Positions 26,292 to 63,511 of a stretch of 64,000 nucleotides of DNA are shown here, in pieces. Location of the stretch: contig NZ_JQSG02000001.1 of the NCBI RefSeq assembly GCF_000754095.2, forward strand, positions 295,140 through 359,139, written 5' to 3'. The notes beneath the pieces are model-generated. The model worked only from the letters and a program-made list of their open reading frames with translations, ran no database searches and was not told the DNA's origin. The stretch comes from Acidihalobacter prosperus (lineage in GTDB: Bacteria > Pseudomonadota > Gammaproteobacteria > DSM-5130 > Acidihalobacteraceae). Numbering within the stretch: position 1 is the first letter of the stretch; each line of letters opens with the position of its first letter. A program made the position numbers and the translations under genes.

Positions 26292-27887
26292 GTGTCAAAA
26301 CCGCCGATCTGGGTCTTAAGCTAATCAGCTGGCCCCTTCAGTAGAAACCTGTGGTGCTGAATAAAGAAGGGATTGGCGCGCCGGGTTTCACCCAGCCTGG
26401 ATGGCCTGGATCAGGTTTTGCGTTCCCATCAGGTTCATCATGCGCTTGAGGTTGTAGGCCAATACATGCAGGCTCATCTCGGTACTCACATGTTCCAGGG
26501 TTCGGGTCAGGAAGTGCGTGTGGCCCATCCATGATTTAATCGTTCCGAATGGATGCTCGACCGTTTGTCTTCGGATGCGCATGCTCTGCGGCGCCTGATC
26601 CAGACGTCTTTGCATGGCTTCGAGGACATCCTGATGCTCCCAACGACTGACCCGTCGATAATCACCGGGCGTGCATTGGGATTTAATGTCGCACCGTGGG
26701 CAATGTGAGCTCCAGTAACGATGGATCTTCAGGCCACCTTCTGTGCTGACATAACGCCAGATCAAACGTTGTCCGGCAGGACAGCGATATTCATTGTTGG
26801 TCGCATCATAGATAAAGTCCGCCTTGTCGAAGCGGCCATCAGCTCGGGCGCCCGACGTCGTGGTCTTCGGCACGATGGCGGTAATGCCCGCCTCATGACA
26901 GGCCAGGATCTGTTCGCTTTTGTAATACCCCCGATCCGCAATGACTGTCAGATCCGTTTCACCCGTGGCCGTTCGAGCGTGTTCTGCCATCGTTGTGAGC
27001 TGGTCACGATCACTGCCGTGCGAGGTCACCGCATGGGCGACAATCAGGTGATGTTGCGCATCAACCGCAGTCTGGACGTTATAACCAACGATCCCTGCGC
27101 CACGGCTCTTCATGGAACGTGCATCCGGATCGGTCTGTGAGAGTTGGCCATCTGGACTCGCATTGAGTTCGGTCTCGATGGCCTGCAGCTGCTTCATCTG
27201 TGACTTGAGCGCTAAGATCTTGTCCTGAAGACGCCCTGACTGGGCCCGGGCCACCTCATCTTCCTGACGATCGGCCGTGTCCAGATCCACCAGATAACGC
27301 TGGATGCTCTTGTCGATCTCTTCCATTCGACGCTTGAGCTTAGCCTTCGTGAAGTTCCGGTCCCGGTTGTTCACCGCCTTAAACTTGCTCCCGTCGATGG
27401 CCACCAGGGCTTCGGAGAACAAACCCAGCTGACGGCACAGATACACAAACTGGCGACAGACATTACCGATGGCCTGTCCATGTTCCTGGCGAAAGCGGGC
27501 AATGGTCTTGTGATCCGGCATCAGGCGACCGGTCAGCCACATCAGCTCGACGTTGCGCTGGGCCTCACGCTCAAGACGACGCGAGGATTGCACCCGGTTG
27601 AGATACCCATAGATGTAAAGCTTGAGAAGAACGGCCGGATGGTAACCGGGACGTCCCGTAGACGCCGGCTCAACCCCGGCAAATCCCAGCGCACCCAGAT
27701 CCAGTTCATCGACAAAGACATCAACCACACGAACCGGGTTGGCATCGCTGACATAATCATCAAGGACTTCTGGAAACAAGACGCTTTGCGTACGGCTCTG
27801 ACCTTCAATAAAACGCTTCATCCCGCCCCCAGAAATCTGCCTTCAAACTTAGATCAAATGGGACTCTCTTGGTTCACGTTTTGACAC
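26292..27887 (-). mobile_element. IS1182-family insertion sequence
   Basis: A complete-looking element of about 1.6 kb. Its ends carry the 10-bp inverted repeat GTGTCAAAAC (26292-26301) and GTTTTGACAC (27878-27887), which enclose one full-length transposase gene on the minus strand. I could not identify a convincing target-site duplication. It lies at the left side of the island that separates the nifH and nifE operons. Confidence 0.82.
26388..27821 (-). CDS. IS1182-family transposase
   Basis: A full-length DDE transposase of 477 aa. The N-terminal domain (LYIYGYLNRVQSSRRLEREA, PDHKTIARFRQ) is typical of the family. Catalytic acidic residues are visible in AIDGSKF, VIADRGYY and VEHPFGTIKSWMG. 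A Cys-containing insert (CPAGQRL, CPRCDIKSQC) lies in the second half. No frameshift or internal stop is seen, so it may still be active. Confidence 0.93.
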   Translation of the reverse strand: MKRFIEGQSRTQSVLFPEVLDDYVSDANPVRVVDVFVDELDLGALGFAGVEPASTGRPGYHPAVLLKLYIYGYLNRVQSSRRLEREAQRNVELMWLTGRLMPDHKTIARFRQEHGQAIGNVCRQFVYLCRQLGLFSEALVAIDGSKFKAVNNRDRNFTKAKLKRRMEEIDKSIQRYLVDLDTADRQEDEVARAQSGRLQDKILALKSQMKQLQAIETELNASPDGQLSQTDPDARSMKSRGAGIVGYNVQTAVDAQHHLIVAHAVTSHGSDRDQLTTMAEHARTATGETDLTVIADRGYYKSEQILACHEAGITAIVPKTTTSGARADGRFDKADFIYDATNNEYRCPAGQRLIWRYVSTEGGLKIHRYWSSHCPRCDIKSQCTPGDYRRVSRWEHQDVLEAMQRRLDQAPQSMRIRRQTVEHPFGTIKSWMGHTHFLTRTLEHVSTEMSLHVLAYNLKRMMNLMGTQNLIQAIQAG

Positions 27888-29606: not shown

Positions 29607-29930
29607 ATGAACAAAGCCAAGAAGTATTCCCCTGAGGTACGTGAGCGTGCGGTGCGTCTGGTGCAGGAGCGCCGTGGCGAGTATCCCTCGATGTGGTCGG
29701 CGGTGGAGTCGATTGCGCCGAAGATCGGCTGTTCGGCCAACACCCTGCATGAATGGGTCAAGCGGGCCGAGGTCGATGGCGGGACGCGCCCGGGTACGAC
29801 CACAGCCGAAATCCAGCGCATCAAGGAGCTGGAGCGCGAGAACAAGGAGTTGCGCCGGGCCAACGAGATCCTGCGCACGGCCAGTGCTTTTTTCGCCCAG
29901 GCGGAGCTCGACCGCAAGCTCAAGTCGTAA
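29607..29930 (+). CDS. IS3-family OrfA (transposase DNA-binding subunit)
   Basis: A 107-aa OrfA with a helix-turn-helix ([30 protein letters not shown]) and a C-terminal leucine-zipper-like coiled coil ([16 protein letters not shown]). A T6C run at 29888-29894 near its 3' end can support the -1 frameshift that makes the OrfAB fusion transposase. Confidence 0.92.
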
Positions 29931-30838
29931 GCCGCTACGCGTACATCGATCAACATCGCGACGTCTTTGGGGTCGAGCCGATCTGCCGCGTGTTGCAGAT
30001 CGCCCCGTCGGCGTATCGACGTCATGCCGCAAGGCGGCGCAGCCCTGCGTTGCGCAGCGCCCGGGATCGACGTGATGAGACACTGCTGCCCGAGATCGAG
30101 CGTGTGTGGCAGGCCAACCAGCAGGTCTACGGTGCCTTGAAGGTCTGGAAGCAGCTCCGGCGCGAAGGCATTGCTGTGGCCCGCTGCACGGTCGAGCGGC
30201 TGATGCGCCGCCTGGGTCTGCGCGGCGTCATTCGCGGCAAGGCGGTGCGCACCACGATCAGCAACCCCGCGGCACCGTGTCCTCTGGATCGGGTCAAACG
30301 CCGGTTCACGGCCGAGCGGCCCAACCCGCTGTGGGTCTCGGACTTCACCTACGTCTCAACCTGGCAGGGCTGGGTGTATGTCGCCTTCGTCTTCGACGTG
30401 TTCGCCCGCTACATCGTCGGCTGGCGGGTCAGTCGCACGATGACCACGGACTTCGTGCTCGATGCCCTGGAGCAGGCCCTCTACGCCCGTCAGCCCGAAC
30501 GCGACGCCTTGATCCATCACAGCGACAAAGGGTCTCAATATGTCAGCATCCGTTACACCGAACGACTCCAGGAGGCCGGTATCGAACCCTCCGTCGGCAG
30601 CACGGGCGACAGTTACGACAATGCTCTGGCCGAAACGATCAACGGCCTGTACAAGGCCGAAGTCATCCATCGGCGTGGCCCCTGGAAATCCGCCGATGCC
30701 GTCGAGTGGGCCACCTTGGAATGGGTGTCCTGGTTCAACAACCAACGCCTGATGGAACCCTTGGGCCATATCCCGCCCGCAGAAGCTGAGGCACACTACT
30801 ACCGGCAACTCAGGCAGCCAGCCTCCGTTGTCGCTTAA
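29888..30838 (+). CDS. IS3-family OrfB (transposase catalytic subunit)
   Basis: The -1 frame relative to orfA, read from the T-run slip site, giving about 316 aa. It contains an HTH_21-like region ([14 protein letters not shown]) and an rve integrase core with catalytic residues in [17 protein letters not shown] and [14 protein letters not shown]. There is no ATG near its start, which supports expression by programmed frameshifting. No internal stop is seen. Confidence 0.9.
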
Positions 30839-54759: not shown

Positions 54760-56376
54760 ATGATCAAGGATAGCGGTGGACGACAGGCGTCACGGATAGA
54801 CGAAGCACGCGCGGGCGGCGACGCGCCGGCGCTGGACACGGCCACGTCGCCCGATCGGGCGGTGACCTCCCTGTTGCCGAGTCTGTTCATGGCGGCGGTC
54901 GAGCAGGCGCCGGTCGCCATCTCGATCACGGACAGCCGCGCAAATATTCTTTACGCCAACGCGGCGTTTACCCGGGTCACAGGCTACCCGCGCGCCGAGA
55001 TCATCGGCCGCAACGAGTCGGTGCTCTCGCACAAGGTCACGCCGCGCGCGTTGTACGAAGACCTCTGGCGACATCTCACCGAGCGGCGTCCCTGGACCGG
55101 GACGTTGCTCAACCGCGGACGCGACGGCGAGCCCTATCTTGCCGAGGTCACCATCGCGCCGGTGGCCGACGCCGAGGGGCAGGCGACGCACTTCATCGGC
55201 ATGCACCGCGACATCACCGAGGTCCATCGCCTGGAACGCGAGCTGCGCGACCATATGGCGCTGGTCGAGTCGGTATTCACCCTGGCGCCGGTGGCGATCG
55301 TGTTGATCGGGCCGGACGGGGCGCGCATTCGCGAAAATGCCGCCTACCTGCGCCTGCGCGGCGAGCTGGGCTGCGATCCGGCGGAACACGCATTCGGTGC
55401 GTTGGGGTTGAGTCTCGCTGCCTGGGAGCAGGCGGGCGGACTGGCGCAATTCAAGGACCGCGAGGTCGGCGTCGGCGGCGCCGGCGAGCGTCCGGCCCGT
55501 TGGCTGAGCTGTTCGACCACGCGTGTCGACGGTGTCGAAAGCCGTCCGGATGCCTTCTTCGAGCCCGAAGCCAAGGGTTACCTGCTGCTCGCGCTCAGCG
55601 ACGTCAGCGTGCAGCGACGGCGTCGCGAGGAGTTGCGCATCAGCGCTCTGCGCGCCCAACTCACGGAACACGAGTTGACCGAAGGCGTGCGCGAAACCGT
55701 GGACGGCGCCGTGTTTCAGCTCGACAGCCTGGTCGGGCGGATCGGCGCCGTGCAGGCGTTGATCGAATGCCGTGAGCAGCCGGGCGACGCGGGCATCCTG
55801 GAGGCCCTGTCGCTGGCGCGTGAGGCCGGCGAGGCCGCCAAGCTGCGGCTTTCAGGCGCGCTGCCGCCCGCGCGCCGCCCGCGGCGTTCGATGGTCAATC
55901 TCAACGAAATGCTGCGTGACGTGCTGGCCATCGCCACGCCGCGCATGCTGGCGGCAGGCGTGATGGTGGACTGGCGTCCGGAGCGCACGCTGCCGCCTTA
56001 CTGGGGCGATCCCGTGGCCTTGCAGGATCTGTTTCGGCAGCTGATCGAGAACGCGCTGGATGCGCTCGACGAGGTGCCTGCCAGCGCACGCATGCTGACG
56101 GTGCGCAGCCAGCTGGGCAACGGCGAGATCGAAATCGCGATCGAGGACAGCGGGCAGGGCATCGCCCGCGAGTATCAGCTCAAGATCTTCGAACCTTTCT
56201 ATACCACCCGTGCCGAACAGGGCCGCGCGGGGATGGGACTCGCGATCGTGCAGAACGTCATCAACGCGCACGATGCCCTGATCTGGCTCGACGCCGAACA
56301 TAGCCCTGGCGCGAGCTTCCATGTCGTGTTTCCGTTGTCGACACGGACCCAGCGACGGGCCGCGGGAGAGGCATGA
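54760..56376 (+). CDS. nifL: NifL, redox- and nitrogen-sensing anti-activator
   Basis: A 538-aa NifL. The first PAS (about 40-157: [33 protein letters not shown]) is the FAD redox sensor in the family. A second PAS follows (about 164-280), then a linker and a degenerate histidine-kinase-like GHKL domain (about 413-523: [36 protein letters not shown]). It binds and inhibits NifA when oxygen or fixed nitrogen is present. The ATG at 54760 follows GAGAGGAG. The stop overlaps nifA (ATGA). Confidence 0.95.
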
Positions 56377-57914
56377 GCTCGGTTGCCGCCATGACGGATG
56401 CGACCGAGCTGCTGCTGCAGAGCCAGCTGCGCACGCTTTATCAGGTGGGGCTCGTGCTCAGCCGGGCCGAGTCCCTGCAGCCGACGCTCAAATCCCTGCT
56501 CGGCATTCTCCACGAACAGGCCGATCTGCGGCATGGCATGGTGGCGCTGCGCGAGCCGGACGGCACGGCGCTGTCCGTGTATGCCCTGCACGCGGAATGC
56601 GCCGACCGCGAAGCGGTGCGCTACCGCAGCGGCGAGGGCGTGATCGGCTGGGTGCTGGCGCACCGCGAGCCCGTCGAGGTCGCGCGTCTCGGCGACGAGC
56701 CGCGGTTTCTCGACCGCATGGGCGTGTACGATCGCGAACGACCGTTCCTGGCGGTGCCGATCGACATCGGCGGCAACGTGTCGGGCGTGCTCGCGGCACA
56801 GCCATCGTCCGCGCGGGCGCTGTCGTCGCAGCGTCAGTTTCTGGCCATGATCGCCGATCTCGTCGGTAGCAGCGTGGCGCGTTCGCTGGAGGTCGAACGC
56901 GGCCGTCGCGCCCTGCAGGAGGAGCGCGATTCGCTGCGCCGCCAGCTGCGCGGCGAATACGGTTTCGACACCCTGGTCGGCCATGCGCCGGCGATGCGCC
57001 GCGTATTCGAGCAGGTGCGCCAGGTTTCCAAGTGGAACACCACCGTGCTGGTGCGCGGCGAGTCCGGCACCGGCAAGGAGCTTGTCGCCAACGCCGTGCA
57101 CTACAACTCGCCGCGCGCGAGCGCGCCGTTCATCAAGCTCAACTGCGCGGCCCTGCCAGACAATCTGCTCGAATCCGAGCTGTTCGGTCACGAGAAGGGC
57201 GCCTTCACCGGGGCGGTGGCCAGCCGGCGCGGGCGCTTCGAGCAGGCCGCCGGCGGCACCATCTTCCTGGACGAGATCGGCGAAATCACCCCGGCCTTCC
57301 AGGCCAAGCTGCTGCGCGTGCTGCAGGAGGGCGAATTCGAGCGCCTGGGCGGCACGCGCACGCTGCGCGTGGACGTGCGCGTGATCGCGGCCACCAACCG
57401 CAACCTCGAGGACGCCGTGGTCAGGGGCGAATTCCGCGAGGATCTCTACTATCGGCTAAACGTCATGCCCATTTATCTGCCGCCGCTGCGCGAGCGCGTC
57501 GGCGACCTGCCGGAGCTGGCGCAGTTCCTGCTCGACAAGATCGCAGACCGGCAGGGGCGGGCGCTGTCGCTGACGGCCGGCGCGATGCGTGCCCTCGCCA
57601 GTCACGACTGGCCGGGCAACGTGCGCGAGCTGGAAAACTGCCTCGAACGCGCCGCCGTGATGAGCGAGGACGGCAACATCGACAGCGATGTCGTCACGCC
57701 TTCAGGCCTGCCGCCGCGCGCCGCGGCGGACGAGCCGCAGGTGACGCAGCCCGCCAGTCTCAACGATCCCGATCTCAGCGAGCGTGAGCGCGTGGTCGCC
57801 GCGCTGGAGCAGGCCGGCTGGGTGCAGGCCAAGGCCGCTCGGCTGCTCGGCATGACACCGCGGCAGATCGCCTACCGCATCCAGACCCTCAAGATCCGCG
57901 TCCGCCAGATCTGA
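56373..57914 (+). CDS. nifA: NifA, sigma54-dependent nif activator
   Basis: A 513-aa NifA. The GAF domain occupies about 20-175, the AAA+ domain about 195-430 (Walker A GESGTGKE, sigma54-contact KGAFTGA, Walker B-like [11 protein letters not shown]), and the C-terminal HTH reads [18 protein letters not shown]. There is no Cys-rich interdomain linker as in rhizobial NifA, which fits control by NifL rather than direct O2 sensing. It should bind the TGT-N10-ACA sites described here. It is translationally coupled to nifL. Confidence 0.96.
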
Positions 57915-57933
57915 ATGCCCCATCGTCCCTTTT

Positions 57934-57963
57934 CCGGGTGGACGCCGCGCGGCGTCCACCCGG
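57934..57963. terminator. Perfect 30-bp palindrome after nifA
   Basis: Two 14-bp arms (57934-57947 and 57950-57963) flank a CG. It lies 19 bp after the nifA stop, with no T-run downstream but a TTTT just before it. A terminator of nifLA is most likely. Confidence 0.75.
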
Positions 57964-58017
57964 CGGTCGCACGTGCATCCCGATGCCGGCGTCGCATATC
58001 GCACATGCCACAGTCGA

Positions 58018-58033
58018 TGTCCGGTTATCGACA
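58018..58033 (+). promoter_or_regulatory. NifA upstream activator site for nifB
   Basis: TGTCCGGTTATCGACA is a TGT-N10-ACA site, 77 bp before the nifB -24 box. The AT-rich stretch in between (about 58060-58100, with AATAAAAAATCAATAAAAAC) could bend or bind IHF. Confidence 0.78.
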
Positions 58034-58109
58034 TCTCGGATTTTGTTCGGGTGCCGTGGGTCTCAATAAAAAATCAATAAAAACAAACTGTTGTAATTTT
58101 TATCCCGAT

Positions 58110-58126
58110 GGGCACGGAGATTGCCA
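58110..58126 (+). promoter_or_regulatory. Sigma54 promoter of nifB
   Basis: GGGCACGGAGATTGCCA has GG-N10-GC (GG 58111-58112; GC 58123-58124) and both conserved boxes. It lies about 43 bp before the chosen nifB start. Confidence 0.88.
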
Positions 58127-58166
58127 CGTGAAGATTACGAACCCACCCAATCGCGAGGTCATACGG

Positions 58167-59651
58167 ATGGAACTGACAGTGCTTGATTCGGCCGGTGCAC
58201 AGCCCCAGCAGTCGGGCTGCTCCTCCAGCGGGTGCGGCAGCACCGACGACCAGCTCGCGCACCTGCCCGACGAAATCCGCGACAAGGTCTACAACCACCC
58301 CTGTTATTCCGAGCAGGCGCATCACTACTTCGCGCGCATGCACGTGGCCGTGGCGCCGGCGTGCAACATCCAGTGCCACTACTGCAACCGCAAGTACGAC
58401 TGCAGCAACGAGTCGCGCCCGGGCGTGGTGTCCGAACTGCTGACCCCGGACCAGGCGGTCAAGAAGACCCTGGCGGTGGCCGCCAACATTCCGCAGATGA
58501 CGGTGCTCGGCATCGCCGGCCCCGGCGATCCGCTGGCCAACCCCGAGCGCACCTTCGCGACCTTCCGCATGCTCAGCGAACAGGCCCCGGACATCAAGCT
58601 GTGCGTTTCCACCAACGGCCTGGCGTTGCCCGAGAGCGTGGATGAGCTGGCCAAGCACAACATCGACCACGTGACCATCACGATCAATGCCGTGGACCCA
58701 GACGTGGGCGCCAAGATTTATCCCTGGATCTTCTGGGAAAACAAGCGCATCAAGGGCCGCGAGGCTGCGGCGATCCTGATCGAGCAGCAGCAGAAGGGTC
58801 TGCAGATGCTCACCGAGCGCGGCATCCTGGTGAAGGTCAACTCGGTGATGATCCCGGGCGTGAACGACGAGCACCTCAAGGAGGTCAGCCGCATCGTCAA
58901 GTCCAAGGGCGCCTTCCTGCATAACGTCATGCCGCTGATCAGCGAGGCCGAGCACGGCACCTTCTTCGGTCTGATGGGGCAGCGCGGTCCGGAGCCCGAG
59001 GAACTGCAGAACCTGCAGGACGCCTGTGCCGGCGACATGAACATGATGCGCCACTGCCGTCAGTGCCGCGCCGACGCGGTCGGCCTGCTCGGCGAGGATC
59101 GCGGCGAGGAGTTCACCCTGGACAAGATCGAAGCCATGGAGATCGACTACGAAGCCGCCATGGTACGACGTGCCGAGGTGCATCGTTCGATCGAGGCCGA
59201 GCTCAACCAGCATGCCCAGGCCAAGCCGGCGGCGCCGGCGGACATCGACCCCGATGCGCGTCCGGTGCTGATGGCGATCGCCAGCCAGGGCGGCGGCGTG
59301 ATCAATCAGCACTTCGGCCACGCGCACGAGTTCCTGATCTACGAGGCCTCGCCGGCCGGCGTGCGCTTCATCAGCCATCGCAAGACCGACAACTACTGCG
59401 AGGGTGGCGACACCTGCGGCGACGGCGAGAGTGTGCTGTCGCGGACCATCGCCACGCTGTCGGGCTGCGAGGCCGTGCTCTGCTCGAAGATCGGTTACGA
59501 GCCCTGGGACATGCTCGAAGCAGCCGGGATCAAGCCCAACGGCGAGCATGCGATGGAGCGGATCGAGGACGCCGTCGCCGCGGTTTACCGCGAGATGTGG
59601 GAGGCCGGTGCGCTGATGACTGCCGCCGACGAATGCCTGGTCGTGGCCTGA
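58167..59651 (+). CDS. nifB: NifB, radical SAM NifB-co synthase fused to a NifX-like domain
   Basis: A 494-aa NifB. The radical SAM cluster motif CX3CX2C is in APACNIQCHYCNRKYDC, with further family segments (GIAGPGDPLANPE, NAVDPDVGAKIYPW). The C-terminal part from about residue 365 (MAIASQGGGVINQHFGHAHE) is the NifX-like carrier domain. It makes the 8Fe-9S-C NifB-co core of FeMo-co. I chose the ATG at 58167 (GAGG upstream); the in-frame GTG at 58128 would begin next to the -12 box. Confidence 0.96.
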   Translation: MELTVLDSAGAQPQQSGCSSSGCGSTDDQLAHLPDEIRDKVYNHPCYSEQAHHYFARMHVAVAPACNIQCHYCNRKYDCSNESRPGVVSELLTPDQAVKKTLAVAANIPQMTVLGIAGPGDPLANPERTFATFRMLSEQAPDIKLCVSTNGLALPESVDELAKHNIDHVTITINAVDPDVGAKIYPWIFWENKRIKGREAAAILIEQQQKGLQMLTERGILVKVNSVMIPGVNDEHLKEVSRIVKSKGAFLHNVMPLISEAEHGTFFGLMGQRGPEPEELQNLQDACAGDMNMMRHCRQCRADAVGLLGEDRGEEFTLDKIEAMEIDYEAAMVRRAEVHRSIEAELNQHAQAKPAAPADIDPDARPVLMAIASQGGGVINQHFGHAHEFLIYEASPAGVRFISHRKTDNYCEGGDTCGDGESVLSRTIATLSGCEAVLCSKIGYEPWDMLEAAGIKPNGEHAMERIEDAVAAVYREMWEAGALMTAADECLVVA

Positions 59652-60210: not shown

Positions 60211-60591
60211 ATGCATGCGAATTCGGGAGAACCCGCTTGGCGTTTATGCGATGCGGCGCCGAGCGATCGTATCGACGGCTGCGCGGTCGTTGCGGTGGAT
60301 GAAGGCGCGAGCTTCGCGCTCTACGACTGTGGCCGGCACGAACCGGAGCTGATCGGGCGCATCATCATCCCATTGGACGGCTGCCCGCCCGCTGCGCTGG
60401 CCGTCCGCCTGGTCGACTGCGATCTCGTGCTGGTGCGCGAGCCGCATGCGGCTCTTGGCGTGCAGCTTGCGCATTGTGGCGTGGACACACGCCGTCTGGG
60501 TGATGCAAGGAAGACCGCGGCCGCAGCCACTGCCTGGCGGGCCTGGCGTCATCGTGCACAAGACGCGGCATCGACCGCGCAGCCGGCATGA
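60211..60591 (+). CDS. Diverged NifX/NafY-fold protein
   Basis: A 126-aa protein with the layout of a NifX-type cofactor-binding domain in degenerate form: ASFALYDCGRHEPELIGRII (beta strand-loop), then LVDCDLVLVREPHAALGVQL and GVDTRRLGDARKTAAAATAW. The usual N-Q-H-F-G motif is missing; DRIDGCAVVAV takes its place. I give only a fold-level call. The ATG at 60211 follows GGGGGTAGTC. Its stop overlaps the start of nifQ (ATGA), so they are coupled. A carrier for a Mo or cofactor intermediate would fit the position but is unproven. Confidence 0.6.
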   Translation: MHANSGEPAWRLCDAAPSDRIDGCAVVAVDEGASFALYDCGRHEPELIGRIIIPLDGCPPAALAVRLVDCDLVLVREPHAALGVQLAHCGVDTRRLGDARKTAAAATAWRAWRHRAQDAASTAQPA

Positions 60592-61196
60592 GGGCGACCG
60601 GCGGCGAGGCGGGTCGAGAGACGCGCCGTCCGGGGCCGACGCGCGAATCCCGTTACGCCTATTGGATGTCGCATGCCAGCGGGCAGGCCAATGACGCACT
60701 GCTGGCGAAAATACTCAGCTCCCGAGAGTCTGGCGGTAGCGCATTGCCGCCGAATCTTGGGCTGGAACCAAGTGAATGGCAAGCGATGCTGAGCACACAT
60801 TTCCCGTCGGCCGTGCCGCTGACGACGCCTGTGCCCCTTGGTGCGGACGAGTTGGCGGATGAGGCCCGCGTCGTCGAACGCGACGACTTGGTGGCCCTGT
60901 TGCTAGCCGGCCGCGCGGGACGCTGCGCCAGCGAAGGCTGGCTGGCGATCATCGTGGCCGCCGCCTGCATGGGCGGCGACCACCTGTGGCAGGATCTTGG
61001 GCTTTGGTCGCGCGAGGACTTAAGCCGATTGATGAACGGAAATTTCCCCGCGCTCGCGCAGCGGAACGACCGCGACATGAAGTGGAAGCGTTTTCTCTAC
61101 AGGCAGCTCTGCCAGGCCGAGGGCGTATACGTCTGCCGCTCGCCGTCTTGCGAGGTCTGCGTGGATTACGCGCGCTGCTTCGGCGCCGAGGATTGA
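60588..61196 (+). CDS. nifQ: NifQ, molybdenum donor for FeMo-co
   Basis: A 202-aa NifQ. The C-terminal cluster-binding motif C-X4-C-X2-C-X5-C is present (CRSPSCEVCVDYARC). The middle has GDHLWQDLGLWSREDLSRLM and the KWKRFLYRQLCQ segment typical of the family. It supplies Mo, as a Mo-Fe-S cluster, to NifEN. The ATG at 60588 is coupled to the previous gene; a start at 60666 (176 aa) is nearer to the usual NifQ length. Confidence 0.93.
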   Translation: MRATGGEAGRETRRPGPTRESRYAYWMSHASGQANDALLAKILSSRESGGSALPPNLGLEPSEWQAMLSTHFPSAVPLTTPVPLGADELADEARVVERDDLVALLLAGRAGRCASEGWLAIIVAAACMGGDHLWQDLGLWSREDLSRLMNGNFPALAQRNDRDMKWKRFLYRQLCQAEGVYVCRSPSCEVCVDYARCFGAED

Positions 61197-61298: not shown

Positions 61299-62159
61299 TC
61301 AGGCTTCGCTTGCGGTGTGGGCCGCAAGTGCGGCGAGCAGGTCGTCGGCATCGGCTTCGATGATCTCGATATCCTGGCGTGTGCAGAATCGCACTTCCTT
61401 GGTCGTCGGCTCCGGAATCAGTGCCCACCCGGCCGTGCCTTCGTCATGTCCATGCATCAGATCGCTGAGCACCATGCGCTCGGTGTCGCGCGTCAGCCGC
61501 ATGCCGACAAGCAGATAGCGCAGGCCGCGTCGGCGGGCTTTCAGAAAGCCCGGTATCGCAAACCCACCCATCAACTCGGTGATGTAGTCGACATAGTCGG
61601 CATCGGAGGCGATGTAGCTGGGTTCAGGCAGTGGAGATCCCATCGGTTTGAACAATACGGGCAGCGTCGGGTCGGCGGTTTCCGCCGCAATTTCGCTGTA
61701 GGCATGACCGCCGTAGTGATACAGCTTGTAGCGGTAATCGGTACCGCCGATTCGCGCCGTGCCCAGGATCAGCAGGTGGGCACGGTCCGCGTAGCGGTCC
61801 TGCAGCTGCGTGTCGCGGTTGATATCGATCACGTAAGGCGCCTGCAGATCGGCCAACATTCGGTGCAGCGGCGAACGCGTCCACTGCCGCTCGCCGTAGG
61901 TCTCGGTGAGGAAACGATTGACCGCACTGCGCCCGCGCTTGAGTTCGACGTGCATGGCCGCACGCGGAAACTCGTACATTAGTCGCGGCGCCATGGGCTG
62001 GCCGCGATTGAGGGCCATGATCAACTCGTCGCTGGTTGCCGGTACCGGCTCGCCGCTGATCTGATCAGTCACGCCGCGCAGCACGCCTGGGCCGAGATAG
62101 GGGACGATCTCGCCGTTGCGGATACCTTCGGAAAATTCGTTGAATAGGGTGTCTGACAT
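61299..62159 (-). CDS. SIR2-like protein under apparent NifA control
   Basis: A 286-aa protein resembling the SIR2-like (SIR2_2) domain. The N-terminal VPYLGPGVLRGV fits the NAD-binding GxG loop, YVIDINRDTQLQDRY fits the N-x-D motif (usually T-N-x-D), and VLFKPMGSP followed by SYIASDADYVDYI matches the later K-x-H-G and D-Y segment. In that last motif a Met stands where His is expected, so activity is uncertain. SIR2-like domains hydrolyse NAD in several defence systems. Here the gene has a sigma54 promoter and a NifA site (62198 and 62320), and an AGGAAG ribosome-binding site. It ends next to nifQ, facing it. Confidence 0.75.
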   Translation of the reverse strand: MSDTLFNEFSEGIRNGEIVPYLGPGVLRGVTDQISGEPVPATSDELIMALNRGQPMAPRLMYEFPRAAMHVELKRGRSAVNRFLTETYGERQWTRSPLHRMLADLQAPYVIDINRDTQLQDRYADRAHLLILGTARIGGTDYRYKLYHYGGHAYSEIAAETADPTLPVLFKPMGSPLPEPSYIASDADYVDYITELMGGFAIPGFLKARRRGLRYLLVGMRLTRDTERMVLSDLMHGHDEGTAGWALIPEPTTKEVRFCTRQDIEIIEADADDLLAALAAHTASEA

Positions 62160-62197
62160 CGGCTCGCTTCCTGGTCGTGGATTCCATTTGGATGAAA

Positions 62198-62214
62198 AGC
62201 AGGAATCGAGCCAT
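62198..62214 (-). promoter_or_regulatory. Sigma54 promoter of the SIR2-like gene
   Basis: Minus strand: ATGGCTCGATTCCTGCT gives GG-N10-GC (GC complement at 62199-62200, GG complement at 62211-62212). TGGCTCG has one mismatch to TGGCACG and CTGCT one mismatch to TTGCT. It lies about 40 bp before the start codon. Confidence 0.75.
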
Positions 62215-62319
62215 AGTGTGGATGCACACGCGCAGGCTCGCCGCCATGGCTTAATGCGTACACGCTGGCGATTGGGCCGGGTGTCAAAACTGTCGCGATA
62301 GTCCCATCGGGTCGGATCT

Positions 62320-62335
62320 TGTGTGTTTTGCTACA
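62320..62335. promoter_or_regulatory. NifA-type site for the SIR2-like gene
   Basis: TGTGTGTTTTGCTACA is a TGT-N10-ACA and shares GTTTTGCTACA or similar with the fixABCX/iscA site. It lies about 108 bp upstream of the minus-strand -24 box. Confidence 0.65.
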
Positions 62336-62518: not shown

Positions 62519-63258
62519 ATGAGCAGCAAGCGTTATCCCGAAGAGTTCAAACTTGAAGCGGTCCGTCAGGTCACGGATCGCAGCCACAGCGTGGCCGAGG
62601 TGGTCGGCGGTTCTGCGTGACGACCCACAGCCTGTATGCCTGGCTGAGGAAGTACGGCCCGCAAGCTCCAGAGCATCAGGCCAAGGCCGACGATCAAGCC
62701 GAGATCCGTCGCCTGGAGAAAGAGCTCAAGCGGGTCACCAAGGAGCGCGACATCCTAAAAAAGCCGCGGCGTACTTCGCCAAGCAGTCCGGGTGAGGTAC
62801 GCCTTCATTGCCGAGCATTCCCAGCGATGGCCGGACAGCTTTGTGCTTGCCTTGAAGTCCACCCCAGCGGGTTCTACGCCTGGCAGCGTGCACCGCGGTC
62901 CGCACGCAGTCGCGAAGACGAACGCCTGTGCGGACCGATCAAGCAGTTCTGGCTGGAATCGGGAGCTGCCTACGGGTATCGCAATATCCACAGCGATCTG
63001 CGCGAGACGGGCGAGTCGTGCGGTCCCAACCGCGTGCATCGCCTGATGCGGGGTGCTGGGATACGGGTGCAGGTGGGGTACCGCAGGCCACGACACAAGG
63101 CCGGCAGCGTGCACAACATTACGCCCAACCACAGTCACGACAAGACCGTCACCGAGAGTTTCTTCCAGTGACTCAAACGCGAACGGATCAAGCGGAACAT
63201 CTATTACATCCGCAACGATGCCCGAGCCAACATCTTCGATTACATCGAGATGTCCTAA
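62519..63258 (+). pseudogene. Decayed IS3-family transposase genes
   Basis: Remnant of an IS3-type element. OrfA (SSKRYPEEFKLEAVRQVTDR) is broken by a one-base loss near 62608, continues in another frame as TTHSLYAWLRKYG...LKRVTKERDILKK, and shifts again at the A6 run near 62757. The OrfB part reads EVHPSGFYAWQRAPRS...YGYRNIHSDLRETG and then jumps from the N-terminal region to TVTESFFQ, so the catalytic D-D core of some 90 codons is deleted. An in-frame TGA at 63169-63171 precedes LKRERIKRNIYYIRND...EMS. It cannot be active. It lies between the SIR2-like promoter and tRNA-Leu. Confidence 0.9.
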
Positions 63259-63424
63259 TAAGACCCGACGTCGTCACGGTTCTAATGAATAGCTGTCACC
63301 AGTAGAGTACGAACAGTGTTACCGGCAACGGCTGGACCGTATCTAGAGGACTGGTGATCACCGCCAGTAGGGTGCCGAAGTCCGCCAGAACAGCGGGTTG
63401 CGTAAGTCATTGACTTTTAGTCTG

Positions 63425-63511
63425 TGGTGCCGGGAGCGAGAATCGAACTCGCACTCCCTTGCGGGAACCAGATTTTGAGTCTGGCGCGTCTACCAGTTCC
63501 GCCATCCCGGC
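63425..63511 (-). tRNA. tRNA-Leu (CAA anticodon)
   Basis: An 87-nt minus-strand tRNA with encoded CCA (complement TGG at 63425-63427). The acceptor arms GCCGGGA and TCCCGGC pair and the anticodon arm CCAGA-CTCAAAA-TCTGG gives CAA. A long variable arm (CCCGCAAGGG) is typical of a class II leucine tRNA. T-arm sequence GTTCGATTC is present. Confidence 0.97.

Follow-up and report, generated by a model that had tools for sequence, protein, structure and literature searches.

A PnfA-family nif gene with its own NifA-sigma54 promoter in Acidihalobacter prosperus and its possible role as a pseudo-sirtuin

Why should a gene for a SIR2-type protein stand at the edge of a nitrogen fixation cluster, behind what resembles a nif promoter of its own? 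The question is raised by a minus-strand gene in a stretch of 64,000 nt from Acidihalobacter prosperus (contig NZ_JQSG02000001.1, positions 295,140-359,139), here called the window, in which all coordinates below are counted (Table 1). A first-pass annotation of this DNA had recognised the SIR2-type domain, regarded its linkage to nif as unexpected and considered, among other roles, phage defence or self-guarding. We find that the gene is almost certainly a nif gene of the PnfA family. Its kind is already known under the name pnfA, an accessory member of the NifA-sigma54 nif regulon that is found in hundreds of nitrogen-fixing proteobacteria. As to function, we propose, with a probability of about 0.5, that the PnfA-like protein is a pseudo-sirtuin that binds a nucleotide and supports nitrogenase post-transcriptionally while the cell respires.

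Table 1. The pnfA-like gene, its promoter elements and two nif genes of the cluster, in window positions.
Feature	Position	Strand	Remarks
pnfA-like gene, form 1	61299..62159	-	intact ORF with ATG start; 286 aa; SIR2-fold protein
sigma54 -24/-12 promoter ATGGCTCGATTCCTGCT	62198..62214	-	GG-N10-GC at 62199-62212
NifA upstream activator sequence (UAS) TGTAGCAAAACACACA	62320..62335	-	TGT-N10-ACA
nifA, presumed activator of the pnfA-like promoter	56373..57914	+	TIGR01817 above its cut-off
nifQ	60588..61196	+	convergent neighbour of the pnfA-like gene at the nif cluster end; PF04891 191 bits

The relatives of the window protein fall into two forms: form 1 comprises its closest relatives, and the divergent form 2, which takes the place of form 1 in other diazotrophs, is only 24-27% identical to the window protein but homologous to it along the entire length (hhalign E 1.2e-34). 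The SIR2_2 profile (PF13289) gives the window protein 21.6 bits against a curated cut-off of 24.5, and the gene was not picked up when the host genome was searched with Pfam; automatic annotation could therefore miss it. Despite this sub-cut-off score, the predicted SIR2 relationship is secure, as the first-pass annotation had it. The same profile gives 31.7 bits on an orthologue (L062) and 89.6 bits on form 2, and the AlphaFold model, built with 31 orthologues, is of high confidence (mean pLDDT 92.7, pTM 0.91). When this model was compared with the PDB by Foldseek, all matches listed were SIR2-domain proteins (DSR2, KomC, ThsA and AVAST5; best E 5.9e-9); a sequence search of the PDB with form 1 gave no match. 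Conservation within form 1 is very high, with a mean column identity of 67% in the alignment, and the dN/dS of 0.146/0.884 between the window gene and the copy in a sister species (G002) indicates purifying selection.

Whether this SIR2 fold keeps its chemistry can be judged from the active site, the positions of which were placed via form 2 and its match to ThsA, in which TAWYD is aligned with TTNYD and YKPLG with YKMHG. N114, at the position of the catalytic Asn, is invariant together with R115 and D116 among the 103 form-1 sequences. The position of the catalytic His falls on M173 (codon 516-519 of the gene) within K-P-M-G, so the earlier observation that the His of K-x-H-G reads Met was correct; this residue is Met in 88 form-1 sequences, Leu in 11, His in 3 and Thr in 1. 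Among the 17 form-2 sequences, which include L157 on account of its W114 and its earlier classing as form 2, the Asn position is always Trp and the His position is Leu, His, Trp, Thr or Tyr. Since the His position is variable and form 2 lacks the Asn, deacylation or NAD hydrolysis by the usual mechanism is unlikely to be the conserved function of the PnfA family, which supports the earlier suggestion of a non-catalytic protein. The Rossmann glycine loop is kept, so nucleotide binding by the PnfA-like protein may be possible, and NAD(H) sensing would agree with the conservation of the Asn and of the Rossmann glycines. In the papers on the PnfA family that we consulted, we found no report of a degenerate active site common to both subfamilies.

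The upstream DNA argues for control by NifA. The sigma54 site, noted earlier as a GG-N10-GC element in the right orientation, precedes the start codon by about 40 bp. With a simple hand-set sigma54 weight it reaches 13.3 out of 15.6, a value equalled at only 17 of 127,968 positions, and the sister species G002 has an almost letter-for-letter identical site (CTGGCTCAATTCCTGCT). The UAS starts 121 bp farther up; in G002 a one-mismatch UAS (CGTAGCAAAGCATACA) is found 131 bp upstream of the sigma54 site. TGT-N10-ACA by itself occurs in the window at chance level (9 found, 6.8 expected), so the significance of the element at this gene, present where the first-pass annotation had placed it, rests on its pairing with the sigma54 site rather than on the UAS alone. 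The window contains 9 such pairs, whereas Markov-simulated sequence leads one to expect about 0.2; among the 9 are those ahead of nifH, nifE and nifB. An own UAS and sigma54 pair within 500 bp upstream was found at 41 of 82 form-1 loci, where chance predicts 0.33, a comparison across related loci that are not independent. Taken together with the published NifA dependence of relatives in Pseudomonas stutzeri and Rhodobacter capsulatus, these motif pairs support a place for the pnfA-like gene in the NifA-sigma54 regulon. Between the pnfA promoter and a tRNA gene farther out lies a degenerate IS3-family transposase remnant with broken frames (62553-63305), which leaves both the UAS and the sigma54 site uncut.

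The linkage to nif turned out to be the rule in many proteobacterial diazotrophs rather than a surprise. A scan of one genome per species over 84,980 species yielded 493 relatives, and the top 80 of these were retained. Profile searching of a class-wide sample of 369 genomes found the family in 27 of 32 nif-carrying genomes, five being without it, and in 1 of 337 others (Fisher p ~8e-35 for co-occurrence with nifD, with genomes treated as independent of kinship). Put the other way, nifD is present in 27 of the 28 family-positive genomes, the exception being a genome that is 81% complete. All 16 strong matches in a phylum sample of 299 genomes likewise came from genomes with nif genes, and within the window's own genus a genome without nifD (G001) is also without the pnfA-like gene. 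Form-2 relatives are found on plasmids of Rhizobium, Sinorhizobium and Mesorhizobium as well.

A gene of this description was named pnfA in 2010, namely PST1325 of Pseudomonas stutzeri A1501, which is divergent from nifHDK, has a UAS and a -24/-12 promoter and depends on NifA and sigma54 (PMC2820453); PST_1325 has since been annotated as SIR2 family, beside nifH (PMC11332353). The window protein shares with PST1325, a member of subfamily 1, a mass of about 31.7 kDa, a NifA UAS with a -24/-12 promoter, linkage to nif and the SIR2 annotation (PMC11332353), and we infer that the two are orthologues from position, size, promoter and published annotation rather than from alignment. The window gene differs from PST1325 in location, being the neighbour of nifQ at the remote end of the cluster. 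A non-polar pnfA mutant of A1501 kept 23% of nitrogenase activity at 0.5% oxygen, with nifH mRNA unchanged, and was complemented; no defect was seen under argon, and a severe one when nitrate served as electron acceptor, a respiration dependence that comes from one study in which wild-type activity under argon was itself low (PMC2820453). Two PnfA subfamilies were described, the second about 20% identical (PMC2820453), which fits our forms 1 and 2. Other published relatives are Rcc03262 of R. capsulatus, not found in a nifA mutant (PMC6925177), and Msi351 of Mesorhizobium loti, which belongs to a NifA-regulated operon and is a presumed form-2 protein whose mutant (msi351) is fully effective in symbiosis (PMC3538637). 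Either the role is not universal or it is masked in nodules. Msi351 and, probably, Rcc03262 are placed in form 2 by gene position and not by alignment; form 2 resembles the window protein in belonging to the SIR2_2 family and in its nif operons, but differs by the Trp in place of the catalytic Asn and in being co-transcribed with nifB-nifZ-nifT, whereas the window gene has its own promoter.

Based on these findings, we suggest a plausible mechanism for the PnfA-like protein. It would be a pseudo-sirtuin, in which the SIR2 Rossmann fold and the glycine loop are kept and the chemistry of deacylation and NAD hydrolysis is not conserved. It may bind a nucleotide, for example NAD(H) or ADP-ribose, and could, in a nucleotide-responsive manner, contact a nitrogenase component, or else a system for electron supply or protection. 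As a result, nitrogenase would remain active during respiration of oxygen or nitrate, the effect being post-transcriptional. We favor this scheme because it best accounts for the combination of membership of the nif regulon, the effect on activity after transcription, the dependence on respiration and a SIR2 fold without conserved chemistry. Of additional note, two neighbours recur downstream of form 1 (e.g., L046:10864-11100 and L009:11095-11514): a Cys-containing protein of 78 aa that matches no family, encoded at 19 loci, and a bacteriohemerythrin, encoded at 25 loci. The latter would agree with a role related to oxygen.

Another possibility, which we think rather unlikely though it is the strongest of the alternatives, is that the PnfA-like protein is a nitrogenase assembly factor that matures metal clusters or apo-proteins, with the SIR2 fold merely a scaffold. 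The gene neighbourhood of form 2 agrees with such a role, as it shares operons with nifB, fdx (fdxN), nifZ and nifT, and so do the position of the window gene beside nifQ and the high column identity of form 1, which suits a protein partner. The usual neighbours of form 1, however, are nifH and draT and not assembly genes: most form-1 genes are divergent from nifHDK, often with draT in between and draG nearby. Moreover, a defect in maturation should show itself under every condition, and the P. stutzeri mutant was normal under argon and impaired when respiring (PMC2820453).

The frequent presence of draT in this gap, with the form-1 gene following draT at 25 of 84 form-1 loci, is also the context for a second alternative, namely a His-independent, NAD-dependent ADP-ribosyltransferase that modifies a nitrogenase component. 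Sirtuins of the SirTM type keep the Asn, carry Gln in place of the catalytic His and ADP-ribosylate proteins (PMC4518038), and form 1 likewise has an invariant N114 and a replaced His. In SirTM, however, the replacing Gln is absolutely conserved, while residue 173 of form 1 varies among Met, Leu, His and Thr, and form 2 is without the Asn. Modification of NifH, proposed earlier for this gene, would thus be possible only by chemistry that dispenses with the canonical His; and nitrogenase activity is lost rather than gained in the pnfA mutant, which does not suggest an inactivating enzyme. We therefore consider a SirTM-like transferase distinctly unlikely. There is correspondingly a slim chance that form 1, being SirTM-like, provides an NAD-linked branch of nitrogenase control additional to DraT/DraG, one that persists in genomes without them. 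An obligate partnership with DraT/DraG, attractive from the gene order, is ruled out by the genome tally. draT is present in 16 of 41 sampled nif genomes with the pnfA-like gene and is commoner in those without it (26/30), a difference confounded by taxonomy. The host genome (G000) has neither draT nor draG, and both are present in its sister G002, where draG and the pnfA-like gene are convergent, so DraT is not required.

It is very improbable that the protein deacetylates nif proteins, as was guessed for ZMO1821 of Zymomonas mobilis, a SIR2 family protein induced under N2 fixation (PMC8600466), since the His required for deacylation is missing from 100 of the 103 form-1 sequences. It is scarcely credible that the protein is an NADase for phage defence or self-guarding that the nif cluster has recruited: the nearest folds are indeed those of defence proteins (DSR2, ThsA, KomC, AVAST5), and form 2 has a PADLOC match to LmuA and ThsA, but the window protein has no PADLOC match up to E = 1, lacks the catalytic His and any sensor, partner or effector domain, and belongs to a family that is near-exclusive to nif genomes and has nif promoters, so the earlier suggestion of such a role is not supported.

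A NifA-controlled protein of SIR2 fold accompanies nitrogenase in alpha-, beta- and gammaproteobacteria, and loss of the P. stutzeri counterpart costs about three quarters of microaerobic nitrogenase activity. The degenerate-sirtuin identity would give concrete, testable expectations, namely nucleotide binding without deacylation, and it argues against the published deacetylase guess. The pnfA-like gene may be relevant to the transfer of nif clusters into new hosts as well.

The nif cluster of the window comprises nifHDK, nifENX, a homocitrate-synthase-like gene (nifV), nifL, nifA, nifB and nifQ, and the pnfA-like gene is about 42 kb from nifD, unlike most relatives in not being divergent from nifHDK. 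Transposase genes lie between nifHDK and nifEN, at 26388-27821 (-) and 29753-30838 (+). The listed start of the nifB ORF (57915-59651, +) is probably too far upstream, because a UAS (58018) and a sigma54 site (58109) fall within its first 70 codons and because the NifB model begins at ORF residue 119. Beyond the pnfA-like gene, the nif region is bounded by a tRNA gene at 63428-63511 (-), which from its context we take to be a CAA-type tRNA-Leu, and by a queA-like ORF from 63567 onwards. This edge is not conserved, as the matching tRNA stretch of G002 is far from the pnfA-like gene; in the window, it may represent an island border.
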